A DNA stretch of 64,000 nt from Cognatilysobacter terrigena (lineage in GTDB: Bacteria; Pseudomonadota; Gammaproteobacteria; Xanthomonadales; Xanthomonadaceae), in the NCBI RefSeq assembly GCF_004361065.1, contig NZ_SELT01000001.1, positions 248,001 through 312,000 of the forward strand. Reading direction: 5' to 3'. Below the pieces are notes generated by a model that saw only the letters and a program-made list of their open reading frames with translations, ran no database searches and was not told the DNA's origin. The translations under genes and the position numbers were made by a program. Of the stretch, positions 58,666 through 63,739 are shown one piece after another (the stretch's first letter is position 1; every line of letters begins with the position of its first letter).

Positions 58666-59898
58666 GTGAACACGATCGACAAGCTCGCGATCCTCGCCGA
58701 CGCCGCGAAGTACGACGCGTCCTGCGCGTCGAGCGGCGGCAAAGTGCGCGATTCGTCCGGCACGGGCGGGATTGGCAGCACCGGCGGCATGGGTATCTGT
58801 CACTCGTATACGCCGGACGGCCGCTGCGTATCGCTATTGAAGATCCTGCTGACGAATTTCTGCGTCTACGACTGCGCGTATTGCGTGAACCGCCGCAGCA
58901 GCAACGTGCGTCGCGCGCGGTTCTCGACCGATGAAGTCGTGCGGCTCACGCTCGACTTCTACAAGCGCAACTACATCGAAGGCCTGTTCCTCTCCAGCGG
59001 CATCATCCGTAATGCCGACTACACGATGGAGCAGCTGGTCGAAGTCGCGCGTTCGCTGCGCGAGGACCATGCGTTCGGCGGCTACATCCATCTCAAGACG
59101 ATTCCCGAGGCGTCGCCCGAACTGCTCGCAGCGGCCGGCCGCCACGCCGATCGATTGAGCATCAACATCGAACTCCCGACGGAAAGCGGGCTGTCGACAC
59201 TCGCGCCCGAGAAGACAGCGACGAGCATCCGCGGCGCGATGGGCCAGTTGCGCTGGCGCATCGAGGAGTCGAAGGAGGAACGCGCGAAGGTGACGCGCGC
59301 TCCGGTGTTCGCGCCTGCGGGGCAGAGCACGCAGATGATCGTCGGCGCCGACGGTGCGGACGATAGGAGCATCCTCGACACCAGCGCGAACCTCTACGGC
59401 AACTATCGGCTGCGGCGGGTGTACTACTCCGCGTTCAGTCCTATTCCTGATGCGTCCGTCGCGCTGCCGCTGAAGTCGCCGCCGCTCGTGCGCGAGCATC
59501 GCCTCTACCAGGCCGACTGGCTGATGCGCTTCTACGGGTTCGCTGTCGACGAGATCGCGCCACGCGATGCGGGCGCGGGGATGCTCGATCTCGACATCGA
59601 TCCCAAGCTCGCGTGGGCGTTGCGTCACCCCGATAAATTCCCCGTCGACGTGAACAGCGCGCCGAAGGATCTGCTGCTGCGCGTCCCGGGTTTTGGCACG
59701 AAGACGGTCAAGCGCGTGCTGTCGTCGCGCCGCTTTGCGCGCATGCGGCTCGACGACCTCGCGCGGCTCGGTGCCAGCCTGCGCAAGGTCATGCCGTTCG
59801 TGCAGACGCTGGATCACCACCCGCGCGGCACTCTCGATCGGCCCGAACGCCTGCGCGCGAAGCTTGCGGCCCCGCCGGTGCAGGCGTCGCTGTTCTGA
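58666..59898 (+). CDS. radical-SAM protein of the UdgX-associated putative DNA modification/repair family
   Basis: A 410-residue enzyme. The cluster motif C-x3-C-x2-C is CVYDCAYC (Cys66, 70, 73), with the radical-SAM barrel through LFLSSGIIRNADYTMEQL, LKTIPEAS and PVFAPAGQSTQMIVGAD. A helix-hairpin-helix DNA-binding unit (DLLLRVPGFGTKTVKRVLSS, 335-354) ends the protein. This is the TIGR03916-like family, almost always next to the DUF4130 protein and UdgX. Its substrate is unknown, but the partners suggest damaged or modified DNA. It overlaps the next gene by one base (TGATG). Confidence 0.92.
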   Translation: MNTIDKLAILADAAKYDASCASSGGKVRDSSGTGGIGSTGGMGICHSYTPDGRCVSLLKILLTNFCVYDCAYCVNRRSSNVRRARFSTDEVVRLTLDFYKRNYIEGLFLSSGIIRNADYTMEQLVEVARSLREDHAFGGYIHLKTIPEASPELLAAAGRHADRLSINIELPTESGLSTLAPEKTATSIRGAMGQLRWRIEESKEERAKVTRAPVFAPAGQSTQMIVGADGADDRSILDTSANLYGNYRLRRVYYSAFSPIPDASVALPLKSPPLVREHRLYQADWLMRFYGFAVDEIAPRDAGAGMLDLDIDPKLAWALRHPDKFPVDVNSAPKDLLLRVPGFGTKTVKRVLSSRRFARMRLDDLARLGASLRKVMPFVQTLDHHPRGTLDRPERLRAKLAAPPVQASLF

Positions 59899-61346
59899 TG
59901 TGGCGCGCGACCGTCGAGCCGGCGTGGGAGCTGGCTGCGTGGCGTGATCAGGCGCGGATGGCGCTGCGCGCGGAGATTGCGCCGGAGGTCATCGAATGGA
60001 ACGGTGACGTCGACGGATTGCTCGGTGCACGGGCGCTCGTGGATGCGGAGCCTGTGCGCGAAGCACCCGCCGTTCCGGGCGGGTTTCTTCGTCTCGCGCA
60101 GGCCGTCATCGCGCATCGTGATCCGCACCGGCATGCGCTGCTGTACCGCCTCCTGTGGCGGCTGACGCATGGCGAGCCGTCACTGCTCGAGCATGATGCG
60201 GATATCGATGTCCGCCGGGCGGCGCAGCTCGAGAAGGCGGTACATCGCGACGCGCACAAGATGAAGGCCTTCGTGCGCTTTCGCGAGGTTCCCGGCGAGG
60301 ACAACGCGTTCATCGCCTGGTACGAGCCCGACCACCATGTGGCCGACCTCGTCGCGCCGTTCTTCGCCAAGCGTTTCGCGGGCATGCGCTGGGCGATCCT
60401 GACGCCGTATCGCCGCGCGATCTGGGACGGCGAGCACCTCGAACTCGGCCCGGGCGGTGATCGCAATGAAGTGCCGCATGACGACGCCGGCGAAGCGCTG
60501 TGGCGTCGCTACTACGCGAGCATCTTCAACCCGGCACGGCTGAATCCGCGTGCGATGAAAGCCGAGATGCCGGTGCGCTTCTGGAAGCACTTGCCGGAGG
60601 CACGAGACCTTCCGCTGTTGATGCGCGATGCGACGCAACGCGTCGATGCGATGGTCGCGCGTGCCCCCGAACCTGCGCGTCGTCGCGTGCCGGCACCGAT
60701 GTTCGCAACACCGACGCCGGTCGACGATCTCGACGCGCTGAATCTCGCACTGCGCGATTGCCGCGCGTGTCCGCTGTGGCAACCGGCGACGCAGGCCGTG
60801 CCCGGCGAAGGCCCGCGCGATGCGCGCATCGTCTTCGTCGGTGAGCAGCCTGGCGACGAAGAGGATCTCTGCGGCCGTCCGTTTACCGGACCCGCCGGTC
60901 GGCTGTTCGATCGTGCGATGGCGGAGGCCGGGCTCGACCGCAGCGCGGTCTACGTCACCAACGCCGTCAAGCATTTCAAGTTCGAGCTCCGCGGCAAACG
61001 CCGCATCCACCAGCGCGCGAATGCGGCCGAGCAGGCGGCATGTCGCGGTTGGCTGGAGCGCGAACTCGCGCTGCTGCAGCCCGAACGCGTCGTTTGCCTG
61101 GGTGCGACGGCCGCGACGGCGATGCTCGGTCGGGGATTTCCGCTGATGCGCGAACGCGGTCGCTGGCATCGCACCGCCAGCGACGTCCCGGTGATGGCGA
61201 CGGTGCACCCGTCGTGGGTGCTTCGCCAACCGCCGCACGAGCAGGAGGCCGCTTATCGCGGTCTCGTCGACGACCTGCGCCGGATCATCGAACTCGATGC
61301 CGAGTTGCCGACGCACGCAACACCGAGCGTGGCGAACCGGCACTAG
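59898..61346 (+). CDS. DUF4130-UdgX fusion protein
   Basis: A 482-residue fusion. Residues 1-250 are DUF4130 (TIGR03915), with HGEPSLLEHDADIDVRRAA and TPYRRAIWDGEHLELGPGGD. After a linker, residues 275-465 are a second complete UdgX: cysteines 288, 291, 382 and 400, GEQPG 315-319, KRRIH 367-371 and VHPSWVLR with HPS at 437-439. It should trap uracil in DNA as UdgX does, while DUF4130 may act with the radical-SAM protein encoded immediately before. Having UdgX both alone and fused within 3.5 kb is unusual. Confidence 0.92.
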   Translation: MWRATVEPAWELAAWRDQARMALRAEIAPEVIEWNGDVDGLLGARALVDAEPVREAPAVPGGFLRLAQAVIAHRDPHRHALLYRLLWRLTHGEPSLLEHDADIDVRRAAQLEKAVHRDAHKMKAFVRFREVPGEDNAFIAWYEPDHHVADLVAPFFAKRFAGMRWAILTPYRRAIWDGEHLELGPGGDRNEVPHDDAGEALWRRYYASIFNPARLNPRAMKAEMPVRFWKHLPEARDLPLLMRDATQRVDAMVARAPEPARRRVPAPMFATPTPVDDLDALNLALRDCRACPLWQPATQAVPGEGPRDARIVFVGEQPGDEEDLCGRPFTGPAGRLFDRAMAEAGLDRSAVYVTNAVKHFKFELRGKRRIHQRANAAEQAACRGWLERELALLQPERVVCLGATAATAMLGRGFPLMRERGRWHRTASDVPVMATVHPSWVLRQPPHEQEAAYRGLVDDLRRIIELDAELPTHATPSVANRH

Positions 61347-61376: not shown

Positions 61377-61748
61377 ATGTCGTTCAATCCCGTCAACTGG
61401 TTCGAGATCTACGTCGACGACATGGCGCGTGCGCGCCGCTTCTACGAGACCGTGTTGAAGCGAACGCTCTCTCAGCTGCCGTCGCCCGACATCGAGATGT
61501 GGGTGTTCGACGCCACGCCCGATCAACCCGGTGCCGGCGGCTCGCTGGTGCACTACGAAGGGCTGAAGGCCGGTGGCGCGTCGACCATCGTCTATTTCCG
61601 TTGCGAGGACTGCGCGGTCGAAGCGTCGCGCGTGGAAGCGGCCGGCGGTCGCATCCACAAACCGAAGATGTCGATCGGGCCGTACGGCTTCATCGCCCTG
61701 GCGGTGGATACCGAGGGCAACATGTTCGGCCTGCACTCGATGGCGTGA
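61377..61748 (+). CDS. VOC-family (glyoxalase/bleomycin-resistance fold) protein
   Basis: A 123-residue single VOC module. FNPVNWFEIYVDDMARARRF is the first beta-alpha-beta-beta-beta unit and ASTIVYFRCEDCAVEASRVE with SIGPYGFIALAVDTEGNMFG is the second. The 'PYGFIALAVDTEGN' block with F/G-x-H (GLHSMA) is the metal-side motif of the PhnB/DUF-VOC type. It has no recognisable substrate. GGAG lies six bases before the ATG. It stands between the UdgX cassette and the asnB leader. Confidence 0.85.
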   Translation: MSFNPVNWFEIYVDDMARARRFYETVLKRTLSQLPSPDIEMWVFDATPDQPGAGGSLVHYEGLKAGGASTIVYFRCEDCAVEASRVEAAGGRIHKPKMSIGPYGFIALAVDTEGNMFGLHSMA

Positions 61749-61818
61749 AGGCGCGCGTTCGGACGAACGGTCGCGGCGCCGGGTTGCCTGCGTGCCGCAT
61801 CGCGGGCAGGATCGATGC

Positions 61819-61926
61819 ATGGTCTCGACGCCCGCCCTCGCTTTGAACGCCGCCCGCTCCGGGCGCGTCGACGCGCGCGTCAATAACAATCGCAATAACG
61901 CCAGCCTCCCGCGGGCCGGCGATTAG
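61819..61926 (+). CDS. Asn-rich leader peptide upstream of asnB
   Basis: A 35-codon ORF with AGGA seven bases before the ATG. Codons 22-27 read Asn-Asn-Asn-Arg-Asn-Asn (V-NNNR-NN-AS, bases 61882-61899): five of six codons are AAT or AAC in a genome where Asn is rare. The ORF ends with TAG at 61924-61926, 29 bases before the terminator hairpin, and asnB starts 107 bases further. This is the layout of amino-acid operon attenuators (trpL, hisL, ilvL), but for asparagine. The peptide itself should have no function. I know no described Asn leader in proteobacteria. Confidence 0.8.
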   Translation: MVSTPALALNAARSGRVDARVNNNRNNASLPRAGD

Positions 61927-61967
61927 CGCGCGCAACATCCACGCTCATCGACCACGAAGCCCGCACT
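61870..61967 (+). promoter_or_regulatory. candidate attenuator: alternative base pairing between leader and terminator
   Basis: GCGGGC at 61911-61916 can pair with GCCCGC at 61959-61964, the left arm of the terminator, which would prevent it (6 bp, short). A GACGCGCGCGTC block at 61870-61881, just before the Asn codons, can pair with GCGCGCGC at 61926-61933. A ribosome stalled at codons 22-27 would leave 61911-61916 free, favouring the antiterminator. One that reaches the stop codon would cover it and let the terminator form. The model is inference from the sequence; the short antiterminator stem is its weak point. Confidence 0.5.
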
Positions 61968-61990
61968 GAGAAGTGCGGGCTTCTTCGTTT
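61956..61990 (+). terminator. intrinsic terminator between the leader peptide and asnB
   Basis: A perfect 12-bp stem (61956-61967 with 61972-61983) closes a GAGA tetraloop and is followed by TTCGTTTT. It sits inside the asnB 5' region, 43 bases before the asnB start codon and 29 after the leader stop, the position of an attenuator terminator rather than a 3' end of the VOC gene 200 bases away. Confidence 0.85.
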
Positions 61991-62032
61991 TCCACCCCGT
62001 GAAATCCCACCCCACGAACGAAGGCTCGCACC

Positions 62033-63739
62033 ATGTGCTCGATCCTCGCCGCATTCGATCTCCGCCCCGACGCCGACCTGCGCGTGCTCCGCCCGCTCGC
62101 GCTCGCCATGTCGGCCCGACAACGCCATCGCGGTCCCGACTGGAGCGGCGTGCATGCCGACGATGCGGCACTGCTGGTGCACGAGCGCCTCGCCATCGTC
62201 GATCCCGTCGGCGGTGCGCAGCCCATCGTGTCGAAGGACGGGCGCGTCGTGCTCGCGGTCAACGGCGAGATCTACAACCATCGCGAGCTGCGTGCATCGA
62301 TGCAGGACTACGCGTTCACCACCGGCTCGGACTGCGAGCCGATCAGTGCGCTGTACACGCACGAAGCGGATGTCGGTGCATGGCTCGATCGCCTCAACGG
62401 CATCTTCGCCTTCGCGCTGTGGGACACCGAAGCCAAGCGCTTCGTGATTGCGCGCGATCCGATCGGCGTCTGCCCGCTGTACTGGGGCCACGATGCGGAC
62501 GGCCGCATCTGGGTTGCGTCGGAGATGAAGGCGATCGCGCGCAACTGCCCGGACGTCGGCCCGTTCCCGCCGGGCCACTGGTACGACAGCGCGACCGGCC
62601 AGCTGCGCCGCTACCACGTGCGCGACTGGCGTCGGTTCGAGACCACGGAAGGCGTAGAGGTGTCGAAGGCGGAGCTGCGCGAAGCGTTCGAACGCGCGGT
62701 GCATCGCCAGATGATGAGCGACGTGCCGTACGGCGTGCTTCTCTCGGGTGGGCTGGATTCGTCGCTGGTCGCCGCCATCGCCGCGCGTTATGCGCGACGC
62801 CGCATCGAGGACGACGACCGGAGCGAAGCGTGGTGGCCGCGCCTGCATTCATTCGCGATCGGGCTGGAAGGCTCCCCCGATCTCGCGGCCGCGCAGATCG
62901 CCGCCGATGCGATCGGCACCGTCCACCACGGTTTCACCTACACGGTGGAGGAGGGCATCGACGCACTGCCCGAAGTCATCCGCCACATCGAGACGTACGA
63001 CGTCACCACGATCCGCGCATCGACGCCGATGTTCCTGCTCGCGCGCCGTATCCGTGCGATGGGTATCAAGATGGTGCTGTCGGGCGAGGGCAGCGACGAG
63101 ATCTTCGGCGGCTATCTCTACTTCCACAAAGCGCCGAACGCCCGCGAGTTCCACGAGGAAACGGTGCGCAAGCTCGAAGGGCTGCACCAGTTCGACTGCC
63201 TGCGCGCGAACAAGTCGATGATGGCGTGGGGCGTCGAAGCGCGCGTGCCGTTCCTCGACACCGAGTTCCTCGACGTCGCCATGCGCATGGACGCCACCGC
63301 GAAGATGGCGGGCAAGGGCCGCATCGAAAAGGCGGTGCTGCGCGAAGCCTTCGAAGGCGCGCTGCCCGATTCGATCCTGTGGCGGCAGAAGGAGCAGTTC
63401 AGTGACGGCGTCGGCTACGGCTGGATCGATTCGCTGAAGGCGCACGCCGAGCGCGAGGTCACCGATGCCGCGCTCGCGACCGCCGAATTCCGCTACCCGA
63501 TCAACCCGCCGCAGACCAAGGAGGCCTACCTCTACCGGACGCTGTTCGAGCGCTGGTATCCGGGCGAGGCCTGCGCGCGGACGGTGCCGGGCGGCAAGTC
63601 GATCGCCTGCTCGACGCCGGCCGCGATCGCCTGGGACGCCGCCTTCGCCGCGGCCGCCGATCCGTCCGGCCGGGCGGTCGCGGGGGTGCACGAAGCGGTG
63701 CTGGGATCGTCGAGCGAGACGCGCGTCACGGCGGCATGA
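62033..63739 (+). CDS. asnB: asparagine synthase (glutamine-hydrolysing)
   Basis: A 568-residue class II enzyme. Catalytic Cys2 follows the start Met (MCSILAAFDLRPD), and the glutamine amidotransferase domain holds RHRGPDWSGVH and VNGEIYNHRELR. The synthetase domain has the PPi loop SGGLDSSLVAAIAARYARR and the LSGEGSDEIFGGYLYFHKAP block. It makes Asn from Asp, Gln and ATP. AAGG lies eight bases before the ATG. The upstream Asn-codon leader and terminator suggest expression is raised when charged tRNA-Asn is scarce. Length matches AsnB of E. coli (554) with a short C-terminal extension. Confidence 0.96.
   Translation: MCSILAAFDLRPDADLRVLRPLALAMSARQRHRGPDWSGVHADDAALLVHERLAIVDPVGGAQPIVSKDGRVVLAVNGEIYNHRELRASMQDYAFTTGSDCEPISALYTHEADVGAWLDRLNGIFAFALWDTEAKRFVIARDPIGVCPLYWGHDADGRIWVASEMKAIARNCPDVGPFPPGHWYDSATGQLRRYHVRDWRRFETTEGVEVSKAELREAFERAVHRQMMSDVPYGVLLSGGLDSSLVAAIAARYARRRIEDDDRSEAWWPRLHSFAIGLEGSPDLAAAQIAADAIGTVHHGFTYTVEEGIDALPEVIRHIETYDVTTIRASTPMFLLARRIRAMGIKMVLSGEGSDEIFGGYLYFHKAPNAREFHEETVRKLEGLHQFDCLRANKSMMAWGVEARVPFLDTEFLDVAMRMDATAKMAGKGRIEKAVLREAFEGALPDSILWRQKEQFSDGVGYGWIDSLKAHAEREVTDAALATAEFRYPINPPQTKEAYLYRTLFERWYPGEACARTVPGGKSIACSTPAAIAWDAAFAAAADPSGRAVAGVHEAVLGSSSETRVTAA

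Follow-up and report, generated by a model that had tools for sequence, protein, structure and literature searches.

An asparagine-rich leader ahead of asnB in Lysobacterales as a probable ribosome-mediated attenuator

Does the short asparagine-rich open reading frame that precedes asnB in Cognatilysobacter terrigena form part of a transcription attenuator? Leaders of the Trp, His, Thr, Phe and branched-chain operons are ribosome-mediated attenuators of proteobacteria. The asnB locus resembles them in having a short ORF with codons for the amino acid that is produced, an antiterminator overlapping the end of this ORF, a terminator and a biosynthetic gene behind it. It differs from them in the amino acid, asparagine, in the lack of an Rfam family at the gathering score and in a probable leaderless start of translation. 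A sequence-only reading of the window, by which we mean the whole 64,000-nt stretch analysed, had proposed the attenuation layout of Trp, His and Ile operons for asparagine. According to our analysis, the locus is very likely a ribosome-mediated transcription attenuator of asnB that senses charged Asn-tRNA, and this judgement is drawn from sequence comparison.

All features considered here lie on the forward (+) strand. The leader ORF (61819–61926) begins with ATG at 61819, has 35 codons followed by TAG at 61924–61926, and encodes the peptide MVSTPALALNAARSGRVDARVNNNRNNASLPRAGD. Its candidate stall site, AAT AAC AAT CGC AAT AAC, occupies 61882–61899. The intrinsic terminator at 61956–61983 has the sequence GAAGCCCGCACT-GAGA-AGTGCGGGCTTC, with the 5′ arm at 61956–61967, the loop at 61968–61971 and the 3′ arm at 61972–61983; it folds as a perfect 12-bp stem of −23.5 kcal/mol and is followed by the U-rich tail TTCGTTTTCC at 61984–61993. 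The next gene (62033–63739, 568 codons) is asnB, glutamine-hydrolysing asparagine synthase B, identified by the NCBIfam profile NF006949 (847.7 bits versus a cut-off of 499) and by the Pfam families Asn_synthase and GATase_7. Thus the codon run stands for the amino acid that the downstream gene makes, and a terminator separates the two. The earlier description of five Asn in six consecutive codons of a 35-codon ORF, of a perfect GAGA-loop terminator with a U-rich tail and of asnB behind them was borne out in each part. In 113 leaders, the distance from stop codon to terminator ranged from 19 to 36 nt with a median of 26, in a search that allowed up to 90. At nine loci related to the window (L007–L009, L012, L013 and L018–L021), the terminator has an 11–12-bp stem and no proper U tail, with GCGCTT or CGCTTT behind it; loci of this type are U-poor in the tail. 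Farther upstream in the window, an ORF at 59898–61346 fuses a TIGR03915 putative DNA-repair domain to a UdgX-family uracil-DNA-binding domain, and it is preceded and overlapped by another ORF at 58666–59898.

Such a density of Asn codons is exceptional in this genome. Among the ORFs of up to 150 codons that a script scanned on both strands of 400 kb, at least five Asn per eight codons occurred in one, namely the asnB leader. Across the whole 3.22-Mb genome, the codon pattern NNNxNN (AAYAAYAAYNNNAAYAAY) matched once, again at this leader, and its reversed control gave no match. In 113 non-redundant Lysobacterales leaders, Asn accounted for 725 of 4394 codons (16.5%) versus 1.5% in 91 asnB genes, an enrichment that is in part due to selection because the threshold of the detector itself favours Asn. 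The choice between the two Asn codons was not selected in this way, and AAT made up 47% of Asn codons in the 113 leaders versus 14% in asnB (Fisher p 3e-46). This preference for AAT could sharpen stalling or leave the Asn run unpaired. Arg codons are often interspersed in the runs.

Conservation of the layout was followed at loci upstream of asnB in relatives, which were taken as best-scoring matches and chosen spreads rather than as a random sample. A locus was accepted by the detector if an ORF contained three or more Asn in eight codons and if a hairpin trailed by some T lay within 90 nt of the stop of this ORF. In the window's own family, f1, leader and terminator were found before asnB at all of the 30 best-matching loci (L002–L031), at nine of nine further loci (L112–L120) and at six of another seven (L122, L125, L126, L128, L130, L136 and L137); at the remaining one, L125, a terminator and a leader-like ORF are still present, with the Asn codons scattered. 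When each f1 genus was represented by one genome, 25 of 35 genera had both elements, 24 by script and one, L255, read by eye since the hairpin detector missed it. Other families of the order gave 11 of 13 (f12), three of three (f2) and one of 11 (f7), and neither f9 (0 of 10) nor f4, f5 and f10 together (0 of 3) had leader and terminator upstream of asnB. The sequence-only reading would have been undone by relatives lacking the Asn run or the terminator; in f1, f2 and f12 both are kept and the flanks drift. Outside the Asn run, the peptides diverge strongly from clade to clade.

In nine of the ten f1 genera without a leader, asnB is only 63–67% identical to that of the window, and in the tenth (L254) 75%. 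A more distant asnB (63–67% in f1) goes with the absence of a leader at L257–L260 and L265–L269 in f1 and at the f9 loci. The genomes of f1 and f9 without the leader look as if replacement of asnB had introduced an unregulated copy.

A set of 80 named loci extended these observations. A leader was found in 39 of the first 42 (L032–L073), which include Lysobacter, Xanthomonas, Stenotrophomonas, Rhodanobacter, Dyella and others, and the three without one are records of Rhodococcus (L041), Holophagales (L046) and Deltaproteobacteria (L062). The asnB genes of these three are nested in the Lysobacterales leader clade, pointing either to transfer of asnB with loss of the leader or to misassigned records. 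In the other 38 (L074–L111; Vibrio, Shewanella, Pseudoalteromonas, Rheinheimera and others), a leader occurred at L081 only; 31 of them went through the joint detector, and seven (L080, L086, L089, L095, L099, L100 and L103), in which the script did not locate the start codon, were covered by a 420-nt scan alone. Two loci in this group recorded under genera of the order, Coralloluteibacterium (L092) and Oleiagrimonas (L095), had no leader, and L096 has an Asn-rich ORF with no terminator behind it. A leader call at L088 was a false positive, with some 360 nt between its ORF and asnB, and later counts omit this locus. The folding and TTGC counts below leave out L088 together with nine rows that duplicate or nearly copy others, and the codon and arm-swap counts leave out eleven such rows. 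A class-wide search had hardly any AsnB of this type from outside the order among its listed matches, and it therefore says little about distribution. On the asnB tree, f1 and f12 rows are intermixed with named Lysobacteraceae and Rhodanobacteraceae.

The leader at L081 belongs to a record of Rubrivirga, a member of a different phylum, Rhodothermota. An asnB of this type was present in 14 of 80 genomes of Rubrivirga's order, and the upstream DNA was readable in 13. Six of these 13 (L195, which is the same genome as L081, and L197, L198, L199, L200 and L210) have an Asn-rich short ORF, a 13–15-bp terminator and a U-rich tail; the Asn density of L198, L199 and L210 is only three in eight codons, and the start codon is uncertain in several cases. 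Examples of the peptides are MLSLNVNNVNPNPAPRG and MIHLAPNANRNPLSGRR. The other seven loci (L201–L206 and L208) had no Asn leader upstream of asnB. The contig of L197 exceeds 4.4 Mb and is therefore no stray fragment. The Asn-leader layout before asnB proposed for proteobacteria is present there and is not confined to them. Five full-length Rhodothermota asnB rows form a clade of their own with a support of 100, which is distinct from the main Lysobacterales leader clade, and the asnB of L176 sits on a long branch apart from both. L176, the one f7 locus of 11 with the layout, combines a short Asn leader, MFAIYNTINTTNNRLLRSAGSF, with a terminator of 12 bp. Since the leaders of Lysobacterales, Rhodothermota and L176 occupy separate places on the tree, three origins are suggested; transfer with later divergence is a possible alternative to separate origins.

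An attenuator also needs a structure that competes with the terminator. In the window, GCGGGC (61911–61916), inside the leader ORF, can pair with GCCCGC (61959–61964) in the terminator 5′ arm, around an inner hairpin (61918–61953) that spans the stop codon. Taken alone, this antiterminator is weak in the window: it pairs no better than shuffles (6 versus 5.6) at an energy of −24.6 versus −20.7 (sd 2.7) for shuffles, and no better than swapped arms, 55% of swaps being as good. In full-length leader RNA, the terminator persists in the fold whether a ribosome is placed on the first Asn codon or on the last; hence the choice would have to fall during transcription. As equilibrium folding did not show the switch, we folded transcripts that end in the terminator loop and assumed that the ribosome leaves the RNA free from 14 nt beyond the first base of the codon in its A site. 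In 96 of 97 leaders, a ribosome placed on the first Asn left at least five bases of the terminator 5′ arm paired upstream, versus 21 of 97 when it was placed at the stop codon. Mean numbers of paired 5′-arm bases were 8.35 when stalled, 2.30 at the stop and 6.22 when stalled with shuffled leader segments, and part of the contrast between stalled and stop states is trivial because the stop state leaves less upstream sequence to pair. Thus, across the set, these folds expose the antiterminator when the ribosome is stalled and conceal it when the ribosome has reached the stop codon, and the antiterminator arm suspected ahead of the stop codon stands for the leader set and is weak for the window by itself.

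Comparison of related leaders shows compensatory change in the antiterminator. Pairing between native arms was better than the average obtained with arms taken from elsewhere in the set in 89 of 119 cases (p 2e-13), and counting each unique combination once gave 78 of 101. For 28 leaders belonging to one group, the helix is 97.6% paired, versus 31–52% when slid by 1–3 columns, and six double-change cells were counted versus 0 of 500 shuffles; pairs changed on both sides number only two, which 61 of 500 shuffles reach. Five leaders (L017, L022, L033, L115 and L117) have changed CGG to CAG, i.e. Arg to Gln, and all five carry T in the terminator 5′ arm. This matching C-to-T change gives an A–U pair in the antiterminator, and in L022, L033 and L117 the terminator 3′ arm keeps G, at the cost of a G–U wobble in the terminator. 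In L233, L237 and L246, where the peptide ends in PQAGD, the terminator 5′ arm reads CCTGC. The eight leaders with CAG or PQAGD scatter over five places on the tree.

How translation of the leader may begin is a separate matter. A candidate −35 box, TTGCCT (61784–61789), is followed after 17 nt by a candidate −10 box, CAGGAT (61807–61812), 6 nt before the ATG, and the register is kept in relatives as read by eye, with the −10-like box ending 6–8 nt before the leader ATG. Of 91 Lysobacterales leaders, 81 have TTGC at −38 to −31 from a leader ATG, versus 22 of 461 other ATGs in the same regions, a test that favours the leaderless claim somewhat since any in-frame leader ATG could count. Where TTGC is present, it lies at −36 or −35 in 73 of 81 leaders, and C precedes the ATG in 78 of 81. 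A strict consensus promoter scan found no promoter at the leader. With ordinary promoter spacing, transcription would start on the A of the ATG and the AGGA of GCAGGA would lie within the −10 box. The good ribosome site claimed earlier, GCAGGA, is thus doubtful, as it overlaps the conserved −10-like box. A simple score of Shine–Dalgarno likeness counts 4 or 5 out of 6 matches in many leaders, and so a ribosome site may be present. The geometry of the candidate promoter fits a leader that is probably translated from a 5′-terminal AUG rather than from a Shine–Dalgarno site.

In accordance with these features, the regulation may proceed as follows. Transcription would start at or beside the leader AUG, and a ribosome would trail the polymerase through the leader ORF. 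When Asn-tRNA is ample, the ribosome would get to the stop codon and mask GCGGGC at 61911–61916; the terminator arm at 61956–61967 would then pair with its own 3′ arm, and transcription would stop before asnB. When Asn-tRNA is scarce, the ribosome would stall in the Asn run (61882–61899) with its front edge at or before about position 61910, and the freed GCGGGC would capture GCCCGC (61959–61964) before the terminator 3′ arm exists. The terminator would thereby be blocked, and polymerase would continue into asnB. An AsnRS is present in the genome, and therefore Asn-tRNA should mirror free asparagine, the presumed signal. Conservation and compensatory changes together support the attenuation layout that had been read from the window.

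Other explanations of the same elements have to be weighed against this one. The hairpin might merely terminate the upstream VOC-family gene, whose ORF (61377–61748) runs in the same direction and stops about 200 nt short of it, or act as a constitutive attenuator, the Asn-rich ORF being an accident. We regard this as highly improbable: Asn runs recur before asnB throughout f1, f2 and f12 and their pattern is unique in the genome, the 5′ arm of the hairpin changes in step with the leader ORF, and a candidate promoter lies between the VOC-family gene and the leader ORF. It is likewise very unlikely that the leader senses a general slowdown of translation, e.g. by antibiotics, instead of asparagine. 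Any slow ribosome on the Asn run would expose the antiterminator, and Arg codons are frequently interspersed in the leaders; against this, it is asparagine that recurs in the leaders of asparagine synthetase genes, and it does so in two or more separate clades of the asnB tree.

We give scarcely any credence to the idea that the peptide is a trans-acting small protein with the Asn run as part of its function, even though certain attenuator leader peptides do act in trans, as the available part of one article describes for peTrpL (PMC7298713). Residues other than Asn differ greatly among clades, the tail residue (PRAGD or PQAGD) tracks RNA pairing in one group, and the peptide has no Pfam family at the cut-off. 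A role in trans on top of attenuation is possible. The attenuator sensing charged Asn-tRNA thus remains our preferred explanation.

Rfam searches assigned no family at the gathering score to the window or to 16 related loci, and the sub-threshold matches on the + strand included Thr_leader (RF00506, 21.7 of 55 bits) and Leu_leader (RF00512, 21.4 of 50 bits). No T-box matched at the gathering score in the window, nor at E up to 10 in 61700–62100. An Asn-specific T-box controls asparagine genes of Firmicutes and shares with the asnB leader RNA control of asparagine genes by the charging of tRNA-Asn, but T-box RNA binds tRNA directly and without translation.

The closest parallels in the literature concern cysteine. 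Polycysteine leaderless short ORFs of mycobacteria are reported to mediate cysteine attenuation (Canestrari et al. 2020, as cited in the available part of PMC9031893). They resemble the asnB leader in the leaderless start, in the run of codons for one residue and in the amino-acid-responsive attenuation of the genes behind, and they differ in the amino acid and in belonging to Actinobacteria, whereas the asnB leader has a clear terminator and antiterminator. The uORFC-8-2 motif before cysS of Rhodobacterales has been proposed to act by ribosome-mediated attenuation (PMC8632094, available part). As described there, it too is an upstream ORF of proteobacteria in which tandem codons for a single amino acid are conserved, but the amino acid is cysteine, the gene is that of a tRNA synthetase and the hosts are Alphaproteobacteria. 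Asparagine is not mentioned in the main text of PMC2965389 or in the available part of PMC1262725, which mentions attenuators for histidine, threonine and phenylalanine from further species, and AsnB2 appears in one sRNA-target table of PMC3771888. In agreement with the earlier statement that no described Asn leader was known in proteobacteria, we found none in the open literature searched; predictions in subscription journals may exist. Hence the kind of attenuator is known, and its specificity for asparagine appears to be new within the open literature that was searched.

Taken as a whole, the proposal is of a novel Asn-specific attenuator of asnB across much of Lysobacterales, with a 5′-terminal AUG and no ribosome site, a preference for the rarer AAT codon and at least three origins including one in Rhodothermota; with all these parts together, we lean only slightly towards it. 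The ORF, its Asn codons and its pairing-dictated tail can be traced over more than 100 sequences and appear to have arisen separately, so that repeated evolution of an attenuator becomes testable. The apparent leaderless start poses the question of coupling between ribosome and polymerase when AUG opens the leader. If the proposal is true, the amino acids sensed in Gram-negative bacteria through leader-peptide attenuation would come to include asparagine, and this would explain how the level of asnB is set in relatives of Xanthomonas, Stenotrophomonas, Lysobacter and Rhodanobacter.
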